Virus record (IMG/VR): IMGVR_UViG_3300036985_000346
Coordinates: 1-60,673 of that record
Reading direction: 5' to 3' (one strand)
DNA: 60,673 bases
DNA from: a virus
A model generated the notes under the pieces. The model saw only the letters and a program-made list of their open reading frames with translations, made no database searches and was not told the DNA's origin. The position numbers and the translations under genes are program-made. Shown piece by piece: positions 13,972 through 47,288 of the stretch; positions within the stretch are counted from its first letter, which is position 1, and every line of letters begins with the position of its first letter.

Positions 13972-14997
13972 ATGAAGATTCCCGAGTCAGAGCATAACAT
14001 TCAGTCGTTGATTGACAAGCACCATGAGGCCATTGCCGAGGTGCCTCGCCCACACCTTGGAGCCAGTACCCTTGGCCATGTGTGTGATCGGTGGCTGTGG
14101 CTGTCTTTCCGCTGGGCTGTGCAGCCGAGTTTCCCTGGTCGAATCCTGCGCCTGTTTAGGCGTGGCCACCAAGAGGAGGCCAACATCATTAGCGACCTGC
14201 GTGCCATTGGCATCGATGTTCGAAAGGTGTCTGCCCAGCACCGTGTGGACTTTGGCAGCCATGTGTCTGGCAGCATTGATGCGATCATCGACAAGGGTGT
14301 GCCAGATGCGCCCAAGTCCAAGCACATTGCCGAGTTCAAGACGGCATCCAAAAAAGCATTTGATGATCTGGAGAAGAATGGCGTGGAGAAGTCCAAGCCT
14401 GAGCACTTTGTGCAGATGCAGGTCTACATGGCTGGCACTGGCATCGATCGTGCGCTGTACTTGACTGTCTGCAAAGATGACGACCGCATCCACACCGAGC
14501 GCGTGAAGTTCGACAAGGATGTGGCAGGCAAGGCTATTGCTCGCGGCCAGCGCATTGCTTTGAGTGACCGCATGCCTGAGCCGATCAGCTCAGATGCGAG
14601 CTGGTATCAGTGCAAGTTCTGCGATGCGCATGAGTTCTGCCACCAGTCCAAGACCACCAAGCATGTGAACTGCCGCACCTGCGCTTTGGCCACAGCGATG
14701 CCTGACTCGACTTGGCACTGCGCCAAGTGGGATGCTGAGATTCCTTTGGATTCGCAGCGCACTGGTTGCGAGTCGCATGTCTTGCATCCCGATCTGGTGC
14801 CTTGGCAGCGCAAGGATGGGCCTGACGAGTTCACCGCTGTGTATGAGATCAATGGCGTGAATCTGGCCAATGGCGATCCTGAACAGGAAGGCGTTTGGGG
14901 TAGCAAGGAGTTGCTGGCCAATTCCAATGCCTGCGCCAGCGGTGATCCTTTGATTGCCGAGATGCGCAAGGACTTTGGTGGAAGGATTGTGGGATGA
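13972..14997 (+). CDS. PD-(D/E)XK exonuclease, Cas4/RecB-like with cysteine cluster
   Basis: 341 residues. The catalytic core reads GSIDAIID, then HIAEFKTAS (ExK) and HFVQMQVYMAG (QxxxY). The C-terminal half has many Cys residues (CKFCDAHEFC, then NCRTCALA, HCAKW and TGCES), suggesting an iron-sulfur or zinc cluster as in Cas4/AddB-type nucleases. It would resect DNA ends for Sak4. RBS AAAGGAG precedes the ATG. The stop overlaps the methyltransferase ATG. Copy B is very similar. Confidence 0.8.
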   Translation: MKIPESEHNIQSLIDKHHEAIAEVPRPHLGASTLGHVCDRWLWLSFRWAVQPSFPGRILRLFRRGHQEEANIISDLRAIGIDVRKVSAQHRVDFGSHVSGSIDAIIDKGVPDAPKSKHIAEFKTASKKAFDDLEKNGVEKSKPEHFVQMQVYMAGTGIDRALYLTVCKDDDRIHTERVKFDKDVAGKAIARGQRIALSDRMPEPISSDASWYQCKFCDAHEFCHQSKTTKHVNCRTCALATAMPDSTWHCAKWDAEIPLDSQRTGCESHVLHPDLVPWQRKDGPDEFTAVYEINGVNLANGDPEQEGVWGSKELLANSNACASGDPLIAEMRKDFGGRIVG

Positions 14998-15015
14998 ACA
15001 AACAAGGAGAATTGA

Positions 15016-15824
15016 ATGAGCTGGCTTTATTCGCAGGCGCTGGTGGAGGAATACTTGGGGGACATTTGCTCGGATGGCGAACCGTCTGTGCAGTCGAATG
15101 GGAACCCTACGCAGCTTGCGTACTTGTCGCCAGACAAAATGACGGAGTTCTCCCGCCTTTCCCGATTTGGGATGATGTTCAAACCTTTGACGGACAACCG
15201 TGGCGAGGAATTGTTGACGTTGTTTCGGGAGGCTTTCCCTGTACGGACATTTCCATCGCAGGCCGAGGCGCAGGACTCGATGGAGAGCAGTCCTCAATGT
15301 GGTACCACATGGCGAGGGTGGTTAGCGAAGTTCGACCCAGATTCGTATTCGTGGAAAACAGCCCAATGCTCATTCATCGAGGACTCGGACGAGTCCTTGG
15401 CGACCTTTCCAGTCTCGGGTATGACACGCGATGGACTGTTATGGGAGCAGTCGATGTTGGCGCACCGCATCAAAGGGACAGAGCGTGGATTGTGGCGCAC
15501 GCCAGACACGGGGGGGGGGGGACCTCTGGCCTACTCAAACAAGGCCAGAATCATCGAAAGAATGGCCAGCCCATCCAGATCAGATTGGTGGACCAAGTGA
15601 ACAATCCAAGGCTGTGGCCAACACCAGTGGCCAGAATGCACAAAGACGGTGGAAATCCATCGGAGTACAAGAGGAACGAAATCCCCCTAGCGGCACAGGC
15701 TGGTGGGCCTCTGAACCCAACGTGGGTCGAGTGGCTGATGGGGTGGCCGCAAGAGTGGACCGACTTAAAGCCATTGGCAACGGACAAGTTCCAAAAGTGG
15801 CAGCAACAGTCTGGAGACTTTTAA
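15016..15824 (+). CDS. Overlapping second-frame protein nested in the methyltransferase gene
   Basis: Starting 22 bases after the methyltransferase ATG, another frame reads MSWLYSQALVEEYL, then FSRLSRFGMMFKPLTD, SYSWKTAQCSF and GLWRTP. Past the G12 tract its family-like continuation (LNPTWVEWLMGWPQEWTDL) lies one frame over and ends at 15824, directly before the helicase ATG. The same one-base repair fixes both genes. I recall this MSW...WVEWLMGW protein type as widespread beside or inside phage C5 methyltransferases, with no known function. In the assembled frame it stops early at 15600. Confidence 0.5.
15510..15521 (+). repeat. G12 homopolymer tract
   Basis: Twelve consecutive G bases inside the methyltransferase locus. 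This is the point where both overlapping reading frames shift by one. Such tracts are known slippage sites in phase-variable genes and are also prone to sequencing and assembly errors. Confidence 0.9.
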
Positions 15825-17414
15825 ATGCTCCGTGACTATCAACAGCGCACCATCGACGAGCTGTACCGATGGTTTGAGGCTGGCAATGCTGGCAACCCAT
15901 GCCTAGTGCTGCCAACTGGCTCAGGCAAGTCGCACATCGTGGCCGCGCTGTGCAAGGATGCCCTGCAAAACTGGCCAGAGACTCGGGTGCTCATGCTGAC
16001 CCATGTCAAGGAGCTGATTGAGCAGAATGCCGAGAAGATGCGCCAGCATTGGCCTGGTGCACCGATGGGCATCTACAGTGCCAGCATTGGCCAGAAAGAC
16101 TTGAGCGAGCCGATCACCTTTGCTGGCATCCAGTCGGTGCGTACCAAGGCCGGTGCGCTTGGCCACATCGATCTGGTGATCATCGACGAGTGCCACTTGG
16201 TCAACCACAAGGACGAGGGTGGATACCGCAAGCTGCTTGGTGAGTTGAAGACCATCAATCCGCACCTGCGCGTGATCGGCCTGACCGCCACGCCTTACCG
16301 CTTGGGGCATGGCCTGATCACAGACAAGCCTGCGCTGTTTGACGACTTGCTCACGCCTGTCAGCATCGAGGAGCTGGTGTTCAAGGGTTATTTGGCCACG
16401 CTGCGCTCCAAGGTCACCAAGGCCAAGCTGGATGTGACTGGTGTGAAGAAGCGTGGTGGCGAGTTCATCGAGTCAGAGTTGCAGGCTGCTGTGGATACCG
16501 ACGATAAGAATCAGGCTGTGGTGCATGAGGTCATGGGCTTGGCCGGTGAGCGCAAAGCATGGCTGTTTTTCTGTGCTGGCGTGAAGCATGCCGAGCACGT
16601 TGCCGAAGTCTTGCGCCAGCAGGGTGTGACCGCTGAGTGCGTGACTGGCGAGACACCAAAAAAAGAGCGCGAGCGCATGCTGGCCGACTTCAAGGCAGGC
16701 CGTGTGCGTGCGCTCACCAATGCCAATGTGCTGACCACTGGTTTTGACTATCCCGACATCGATCTGGTGGTGATGCTGCGCCCCACCATGAGCGCCAGTC
16801 TTTATGTGCAGATGGCAGGCCGTGGCATGAGGGTCAAGAGCCACACCGATCATTGCCTGGTGCTCGACTTTGCAGGTGTGGTTGAGTCGCATGGTCCGAT
16901 CACCAATGTGCAGCCACCAAAAAAGGGTGGCGATGGCAATGGCGAGGCACCAGTCAAGGTGTGCGATCACTGTGGTGAGTTGGTGCACATCTCGGTGATG
17001 CTTTGCCCTTCATGCGGTGAGCAGTTTCCTGAGCCAGTAAAAAAATCAATGGTGTTGCGAAATGACGACATCATGGGTCTGGATGGCCAAGAGTTAGAAG
17101 TGACTAGCTGGACATGGCGCAAGCACATCAGCAAGGCCTCTGGCATTGAGATGCTGGCCGTGACTTACTACGGTGGCCTGAGCGATACACCGATCACCGA
17201 GTATTTGCCAATCATGCATGAAGGCTATGCAGGGCAGCGTGCAATGAGCCAGCTGCTGAGTATCGCCAACAGCGCCAGCATTGTGCCTGGTGGTCTGAAT
17301 GTGAAGACGCTGGAGGACATGGTGCAGAACATGAACATGGCCACGCCACCAGAGTGGATCGAGTATCGCAAGGATGGGAAATTTTTTAGGGTAATAAAAA
17401 GGAGTTGGACATGA
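15825..17414 (+). CDS. SF2 DEAD/DECH-box helicase
   Basis: 529 residues. Motif I LPTGSGKS is at 29-36, motif II DECH at 121-124, motif III TATP near 154, and motif VI (QMAGRGMR) lies in the second RecA lobe. A CxxC...CxxC zinc knuckle (CDHCGE, CPSCGE) follows near residues 385-405. An ATP-dependent DNA unwinding role in replication or recombination is expected. The RBS GGAG falls inside the end of the upstream overlapping frames. The stop overlaps the next ATG. Copy B is nearly identical. Confidence 0.86.
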   Translation: MLRDYQQRTIDELYRWFEAGNAGNPCLVLPTGSGKSHIVAALCKDALQNWPETRVLMLTHVKELIEQNAEKMRQHWPGAPMGIYSASIGQKDLSEPITFAGIQSVRTKAGALGHIDLVIIDECHLVNHKDEGGYRKLLGELKTINPHLRVIGLTATPYRLGHGLITDKPALFDDLLTPVSIEELVFKGYLATLRSKVTKAKLDVTGVKKRGGEFIESELQAAVDTDDKNQAVVHEVMGLAGERKAWLFFCAGVKHAEHVAEVLRQQGVTAECVTGETPKKERERMLADFKAGRVRALTNANVLTTGFDYPDIDLVVMLRPTMSASLYVQMAGRGMRVKSHTDHCLVLDFAGVVESHGPITNVQPPKKGGDGNGEAPVKVCDHCGELVHISVMLCPSCGEQFPEPVKKSMVLRNDDIMGLDGQELEVTSWTWRKHISKASGIEMLAVTYYGGLSDTPITEYLPIMHEGYAGQRAMSQLLSIANSASIVPGGLNVKTLEDMVQNMNMATPPEWIEYRKDGKFFRVIKRSWT

Positions 17415-46134: not shown

Positions 46135-47160
46135 ATGAAGATTCCCGAGTCAGAGCATAACATTCAGGCGCTAATTGACAAGCACCATGAGGCTATTGCT
46201 GAGGTGCCGCGCCCACATCTTGGAGCCAGTACGCTTGGCCATGTGTGTGATCGGTGGCTGTGGCTGTCGTTTCGCTGGGCTGTGCAGCCGAGCTTCCCTG
46301 GTCGAATCCTGCGTCTGTTCAGGCGTGGCCACCAAGAGGAGGCCAACATCATCAGCGACTTGCGTGCCATTGGTATCGATGTGCGCAAGGTGTCGAGCCA
46401 GCACCGTGTGGACTTTGGCAGCCATGTGTCTGGCTCGATTGATGCCATCATCGACAAGGGTGTTCCAGAAGCGCCCAAGACCAAGCACATTGCCGAGTTC
46501 AAAACCGCATCAAAAAAGGCGTTTGACGATCTGGAGAAGAATGGCGTGGAGAAGTCCAAGCCTGAGCACTTTGTGCAGATGCAGGTCTACATGGCTGGCA
46601 CTGGCATCGATCGTGCGCTGTACTTGACTGTCTGCAAGGATGATGACCGCATCCACACCGAGCGCGTGAAGTTCGACAAGGATGTAGCAGGTAAGGCAAT
46701 CGAGCGTGGCCAGCGCATTGCTTTGACTGATCGCATGCCTGAGCCGATCAGCTCGGATGCGAGCTGGTATCAGTGCAAGTTCTGCGATGCGCATGAGTTC
46801 TGCCACCAGAGCAAGACCACCAAGCATGTGAACTGCCGAACTTGTGCTTTGGCCACAGCGATGCCTGACTCGACTTGGCACTGCGCCAAGTGGGATGCTG
46901 TGATTCCTTTAGATTCTCAGCGCACCGGCTGTGAAGGCCATGTCCTGCACCCTGATCTGGTGCCTTGGCAGCGCAAGGATGGGCCTGACGAGTTCACCGC
47001 TGTGTACGAGATCAATGGCGTGAATCTGGCCAATGGCGATCCTGAGCAGGAGGGTGTCTACGGCTCCAAGGAGTTGCTGGCCAATTCAAATGCCTGCGCC
47101 AGCGGTGATTCGTTCATTGCTGAAATGCGCAAGGACTTTGGTGGAAGGATTGTGGGATGA
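46135..47160 (+). CDS. PD-(D/E)XK exonuclease, Cas4/RecB-like, copy B
   Basis: 341 residues, same motifs and cysteine cluster as 13972-14997 with scattered substitutions. Its stop overlaps the methyltransferase remnant start. Confidence 0.8.
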   Translation: MKIPESEHNIQALIDKHHEAIAEVPRPHLGASTLGHVCDRWLWLSFRWAVQPSFPGRILRLFRRGHQEEANIISDLRAIGIDVRKVSSQHRVDFGSHVSGSIDAIIDKGVPEAPKTKHIAEFKTASKKAFDDLEKNGVEKSKPEHFVQMQVYMAGTGIDRALYLTVCKDDDRIHTERVKFDKDVAGKAIERGQRIALTDRMPEPISSDASWYQCKFCDAHEFCHQSKTTKHVNCRTCALATAMPDSTWHCAKWDAVIPLDSQRTGCEGHVLHPDLVPWQRKDGPDEFTAVYEINGVNLANGDPEQEGVYGSKELLANSNACASGDSFIAEMRKDFGGRIVG

Positions 47161-47288
47161 ACAAACAAGGAGAATTAAATGAGTTGGCTTTATTCGCAGG
47201 CGCTGGTGGAGGAATACTTGGCGGGAAACTTCTCGGATGGCGAACAGTCTGTGCCGCCACAGCATGGAGAATTCTGAATGCTCCGTGA
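47157..47288 (+). pseudogene. C5 methyltransferase remnant, copy B
   Basis: 43 codons: the N-terminal motif I region (LALFAGAGGGILGG, KLLGWRTVCA) is fused directly to the far C-terminus (WRILNAP). About 711 bp are missing relative to the repaired copy A gene, an in-frame deletion. All catalytic motifs are lost. The nested second frame is likewise reduced to 32 residues (47179-47277, MSWLYSQALVEEYL to GEF), ending just before the helicase ATG. Confidence 0.75.

Follow-up and report, generated by a model that had tools for sequence, protein, structure and literature searches.

Comparison with described systems

Phase-variable methyltransferases are a classic theme of bacterial genetics. The locus described here lies at positions 14994-15835 of a virus record of 60,673 bases (IMG/VR record IMGVR_UViG_3300036985_000346, the whole of which is called the window), where two overlapping frames, M with the motifs of a C5-methyltransferase and N nested within it, run into a single tract of twelve G. 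This is likely a phage contingency locus in which slipped-strand phase variation rewires the dual-coding M/N pair into three states. By its sequence, the locus resembles a bacterial phase-variable methyltransferase in that the length of a G tract changes faster than its surroundings and breaks or restores the frame. It differs in that it is found in phages, concerns two overlapping genes at once and would exchange their halves rather than merely truncate them.

Bacterial loci of the Mod or phasevarion type, such as ModH5 of Helicobacter pylori (PMC5700931), are similar to M/N in that a repeat tract within a DNA methyltransferase gene switches between on and off variants. However, the Mod type is bacterial, mostly comprises Type III adenine enzymes and has one gene per tract, whereas in M/N the enzyme is a C5 methyltransferase of phages and its tract is shared by a second, nested gene. 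In the C-terminal phase variation of Helicobacter canadensis (PMC2823697), poly-G tracts late in the gene, up to G17 in the C-terminal set, swap the C-terminus rather than merely ending the protein early. There, mostly a few residues of one gene are changed, whereas M/N would exchange conserved halves of two overlapping genes. The natural two-chain C5 enzyme M.AquI carries motifs I-VIII on one polypeptide and motifs IX-X on another, and its break falls in the variable region past motif VIII, near the position of the tract in M (PMC3404938). The split of M.AquI is fixed, whereas in M/N a comparable split, with the N front fused to the M tail, is predicted for one register of three. For M.SssI, complementation is best with fragments whose start lies past motif VIII and before the recognition domain (PMC3404938).

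Fixed arrangements were also found in phages. Paenibacillus phage Bloom has a whole methyltransferase and a nested +1 gene (BLOOM_56/BLOOM_57; PHROG 363 and PHROG 1008), and N matches PHROG 1008. The Bloom pair differs in having no tract, and both of its genes carry the label 'DNA cytosine methyltransferase' despite the absence of C5 motifs from N. Bloom, as well as Acinetobacter and Salmonella phages, are fixed counterparts of the register in which both genes are whole (register 1, below); Bloom and Acinetobacter phage ABMM1 are in culture and have the pair intact. The two-gene 'DNA methylase' loci of actinophages (Streptomyces phage Vash 32/33 and Mycobacterium phages Drake94 76/75 and Maminiaina 84/83) are similar in another way: gene a holds motifs I-VIII, and gene b, in the +1 frame, is N-like and then holds the motif IX-X region in the same frame. 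The N-like sequence of the three phages continues in one frame into the GNG motif, and the 'LNP-EWLMG' segment lies in frame with motif X in all three. Judged by this layout, the actinophage loci are the fixed counterpart of the register that joins the N front to the M tail (register 3); they differ from M/N in that the arrangement is fixed and a long G tract was not seen. The corresponding features are:

L464 1308-2364, L470 720-1713 and L471 711-1740: actinophage split methyltransferases in two overlapping frames, the +1 gene being N-like with motifs IX-X.

A search of the open literature found no description of such a phage M/N tract switch, although such a search cannot prove absence, and the Campylobacter phage literature gave nothing usable on tract-switched phage genes.

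Organization of the M/N locus

The features of the locus, all on the + strand, are:

14982-14986, +: AAGGA, Shine-Dalgarno-like, 7 nt 5' of the M ATG at 14994 (from sequence).
14994-15509, +: M front half, C5-methyltransferase motifs I-VIII (PF00145, E 5e-30; phrog_363; M.HhaI alignment).
15004-15009, +: AAGGAG, Shine-Dalgarno-like, 6 nt 5' of the N start and within the first M codons (from sequence; similar sites at 146 of 217 N starts).
15012-15018, +: TTGAATG, with TTG as a possible M start 4 nt 5' of the N ATG (conserved NTGAATG layout).
15016-15509, +: N front half, +1 within M, MSWLYSQ...LWRTPDT (phrog_1008, 2e-12; open in 81 of 81 distinct relatives).
15510-15521, +: G12 homopolymer tract at the joint of motif VIII and the target-recognition region (G10-G17 at the same site in relatives).
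15522-15824, +: N tail, TSGLLKQGQ...LNPTWVEWLMGWPQEW...SGDF, in the frame of the M front (phrog_26627, 2e-14; phrog_1008, 1e-9).
15522-15835, +: M tail, target-recognition region and motifs IX-X (phrog_32758, 6e-18; phrog_363, 3e-9), in the frame of the open reading frame 15431-15835.

The M frame opens at ATG 14994 and the N frame at ATG 15016, +1 relative to M. Residues 11-171 of M matched positions 5-163 of the 324 in the PF00145 profile, and residues 15-169 of M.HhaI aligned by phmmer with the part of M before the tract, which corresponds to motifs I-VIII. The M front contains GGFPCTDIS, FVENSP and PHQRDR and carries motif I, the PC motif IV, motif VI and motif VIII of a C5-methyltransferase. 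Cytosine methylation by M is predicted from these motifs. Motif VIII of C5 enzymes is followed by the recognition domain and motifs IX-X, and the tract sits at this joint between the catalytic and recognition halves of M.

After the tract, motifs IX-X (RLKAIGNGQVPKVA...NAP, stop 15835) are found one frame back, with matches to phrog_363 and phrog_32758, while the N tail runs in the former M frame. In the G12 allele, the target-recognition region and motifs IX-X are consequently in another frame and not on the chain of the M front. As assembled, the M front continues into the N tail (276 aa, stop 15824) and the N front runs on in the third frame to a stop at 15600 (194 aa). The first-pass annotation had described two protein-like frames, the first with C5 motifs I-VIII, that both continue one frame back after the twelve G, and the profile matches to all four halves agree with this description. 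It had also stated that one inserted G restores M and N together. This is exactly what is seen in relatives with G13, such as L003, in which both genes are in register and the target-recognition region and motifs IX-X are on the M chain. Elsewhere in the window, G or C runs reach a length of 6 at most.

Tract length and register among relatives

Relatives were collected with N and M queries, followed by all viral contigs with the local tract pattern or the post-tract region; the tract lengths given throughout are contig consensus values from metagenomes. A tract of G10-G17 was found at the same position in 66 distinct viral sequences, a long mononucleotide tract of conserved position within a reading frame, as in contingency loci. 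Among the 58 sequences that could be classified, having M and N frames assignable on either side of the tract, 18 had both genes in register, 21 joined the M front to the N tail and 19 joined the N front to the M tail. Register carries no phylogenetic signal, with 26 changes on a tree from which the tract was left out and 24.7±2.0 for shuffled labels. The closest relatives of the window, approximately 97-99% identical before the tract, had G11, G12, G13 and G14, so that near-identical genomes differ in length and thereby in register, a further feature of contingency loci. In the nearest relatives without a tract, the site is made up of ordinary glycine codons (WRTPDN-AGGSNLPG) and the longest G run is mostly 3-6. 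Over 238 distinct loci, the methyltransferase had 76 G or C runs of at least 9 (0.384 per kb), compared with 7 such runs (0.0051 per kb) in 1.37 Mb of sequence beyond it, an excess that comes partly from loci picked for their tract.

The only phage records near the window are from spring water and gave no host assignment; the tract-bearing family is one of aquatic phages.

Another explanation is decay, with loss of M under way and neutral expansion of the G runs. The second phage-like copy in the same contig lacks most of M/N and another phage record has only a 111-aa remnant, as decay would have it. However, the out-of-register alleles retain their post-tract frames, mostly show no excess of other lesions, and are unlike decaying genes because the distance at which the M and N tails end is conserved in almost every relative, regardless of register. 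In addition, M is under purifying selection (dNN/dSN approximately 0.12-0.20), which makes decay very unlikely.

Further tracts in the same gene family

Long tracts were found at two more sites of the methyltransferase. A G9-G15 tract by motif IV was present in 48 distinct sequences, with 24 in register, 13 and 7 in the other two registers and 4 unassigned, and a C10-C15 tract directly before the target-recognition region was present in 10 distinct sequences. Both the motif-IV G tract (L392-L451) and the C tract (L452-L462) are variable in length and look like convergent contingency tracts. A scan of motif I for long tracts showed none with at least 10 G, and the G8-G10 runs there may therefore be ordinary glycine codons.

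Two out-of-register alleles of the motif-IV site deserve mention. In a Gallionella metagenome-assembled genome contig of 414 kb (L291, 4000-4973), a G9 run by motif IV shifts the M and N frames, placing an out-of-register allele in a genome bin. In L426, a virus record whose IMG number looks like that of an isolate genome, the motif-IV tract is out of register. Upstream of this M/N pair, the near-repeats YSPNYAWLQVFGDGYQYYDHKD and YSPNNAWNQNFDDGNQNNDHKD differ at A sites and have an avd-like frame between them, an arrangement that resembles a diversity-generating retroelement.

Origin of the length variation

The window's G12 could be a sequencing or assembly miscount of a tract that is always in register. 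Long G runs are difficult for short reads, and several contigs end at the tract or look garbled past it. In total, 7 of 69 contigs end within 40 nt of the tract and 4 others begin in or at it; such breaks are compatible with mixed lengths within samples but also with G runs being sequenced poorly. That a tract is present is nevertheless beyond doubt, and error would need two-thirds of the contigs to be wrong over lengths from 10 to 17. Miscounts of a true 13 would not yield 10, 11, 15 or 17, or two-thirds of alleles out of register. Identical or near-identical phages from different, independent datasets mostly had the same length (G11 three times, G12 three times, G14 twice and G9 four times). 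In addition, pairs with identical 800-nt flanks differed in the tract (G15/G13, G14/G15 and G13/G15, all at the motif-IV site). From this agreement between datasets, the flank-identical pairs that differ, and lengths and registers that do not look like miscounts, the tract lengths are probably right for the most part. The first two of these grounds led to the rejection of assembly error as a full explanation, and a tract that is in truth always in register is highly improbable.

The main rival to phase variation is transcriptional slippage or programmed -1 frameshifting, by which any tract length would yield all frames, the length would drift freely and each phage would make M, N and the chimeras. 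Long homopolymers are known slippage sites. The registers at this site are near equal and phylogenetically random, as described above, and the RNA 3' of the tract folds slightly better than shuffled sequences (z -1.85). However, three G or C tract sites in one family, lengths of up to 17 and flank-identical pairs that differ have the look of genomic contingency tracts, and frameshift signals usually hold a fixed heptamer rather than a drifting run. Slippage or frameshifting is thus considered unlikely.

The first-pass annotation had offered phase variation, programmed frameshifting and a homopolymer error side by side. Phase variation is the best supported of the three, and error alone is refuted by a same-site tract of lengths 10-17 in 66 distinct sequences covering all three registers. 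Absent from that annotation were the three-way rewiring that creates chimeras, the further, independent tracts elsewhere in the gene and the fixed actinophage split.

Coding potential of the nested frame

The second frame had been described in the first-pass annotation as a recurring phage protein, and N homologues proved to be widespread, with matches to PHROG 1008 and to annotated nested GenBank genes. Among 81 distinct methyltransferases, the +1 frame contained 0 stops in 12,717 codons, compared with approximately 257 expected when synonymous codons were shuffled within each sequence. The flanking genes used as controls were at expectation in the same test (118 vs 125 and 249 vs 261 stops). 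The N frame was also without stops over the profile match in 76 of 80 distant loci from bacterial and archaeal genomes. The four nucleotides before the N ATG were ATGA, GTGA or TTGA in 188 of 217 loci, which places an M start codon 4 nt 5' of the N ATG, and Shine-Dalgarno-like sites suitably spaced for the N start were present in 146 of 217. Fourfold M sites are strongly reduced in divergence: among close relatives 0-3 of approximately 67 differ, compared with approximately 7-30 per 100 in flanking genes. From these patterns N is very probably a translated, overprinted gene. The dual coding proposed at first, which hung on homologues and constraint in the second frame, therefore stands, the homologues being widespread and the frame kept open; the codon-level rates proposed alongside the homology searches gave weak evidence (below).

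PHROG 1008 and several GenBank entries call the N frame 'DNA methyltransferase' though it has no C5 motifs, a label that seems to have been taken from the overlapping gene. No family for N was found in Pfam or NCBIfam.

Several points weigh against a phase-variable dual-coding pair. For N, the ratio dNN/dNS was approximately 0.78 with an interval usually reaching 1 (1.4-2.0 for the third frame), which is weak evidence because such OLGenie-like rates have only about 3 doubly synonymous sites. Structure prediction with AlphaFold2 on 25 N sequences gave no fold, with a mean pLDDT of 35. The comparison at fourfold M sites may be affected by recombination, as the M cassette has differing flanking genes. 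For the tract, in-register alleles at this site are not enriched (18 of 58), which also fits drift in a partly dispensable gene. The lengths come from metagenomic consensus over error-prone long G runs, by which the extent of variation may be inflated. A cultured phage with a tract at this site was not found.

The first two of these points also bear on the possibility that N is not a protein, the +1 frame being open as a by-product of M composition and the locus being a phase-variable methyltransferase alone. It would likewise fit that a free-standing N, sought in 80 genome loci, was found in none, N always overlapping M in +1. However, the missing stops persist with codon usage kept and with flanking controls at expectation, and in the distant genome loci. 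The conserved start layout, the reduced fourfold divergence and the GenBank and PHROG families of N also speak against this possibility, and it appears rather improbable.

Second copy in the contig

Positions 1-30365 and 33179-60673 of the window contain the same phage genome twice, head to tail, with one gene order and a segment-wise identity of 78-96%. Two strains may have been joined in a chimeric assembly, or the copies may form a tandem pair. The second copy has one feature of the locus:

47157-47281, +: M/N remnant with an internal deletion in the second phage-like copy; short frames open in M and N.

The remnant retains a short open M frame (MNKQGELNELALFAG...WRILNAP) and a short open N frame (MSWLYSQALVEEYLAGNFSDGEQSVPPQHGEF), most of M/N being lost.

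Proposed switch and its significance

In the proposed phase variation, slipped-strand mispairing during replication would alter the length of the G tract, and each change of one base would shift M and N jointly among three registers. Register 1 would have M and N whole and should yield an active methyltransferase together with N. Register 2, that of the assembled window, would join the M front to the N tail, truncate the N front and leave M without motifs IX-X, and should yield no one-chain methyltransferase. Register 3 would join the N front to the M tail with the recognition and IX-X half, while the M front would stop approximately 25 codons past the tract; its product could be inactive or, as in M.AquI, an enzyme of two chains. 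On, off and fused versions probably coexist within a phage population. Phages with different DNA methylation could thereby be maintained, plausibly against hosts with different restriction or methylation-dependent defences.

A split-type layout, with motifs I-VIII and IX-X on two chains, is predicted for the N-front/M-tail register (19 of 58). Register 3 may be active as two chains, since M.AquI is a two-chain enzyme cut in this region and M.SssI fragments complement each other. A more tentative and on balance doubtful extension is a combinatorial switch that acts on the two overlapping genes and has three positions, of which more than one would be functional: a one-chain methyltransferase together with free N, a methyltransferase of two chains in which the N front is joined to the recognition and IX-X half to form the second, and a non-methylating M/N chimera. 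If this were true, the architecture of the enzyme, and perhaps its activity or specificity, would change beyond on and off.

Overall, a family of phages appears to use the trick of phase-variable methyltransferases, repeatedly evolved at three sites of one gene. If confirmed, this would mean a built-in heterogeneity of methylation in phage populations, relevant to restriction evasion and host range, and would explain the frequently frameshifted look of such phage methyltransferases in metagenomes. It would also provide a natural system of two genes that are rewired by a single indel.

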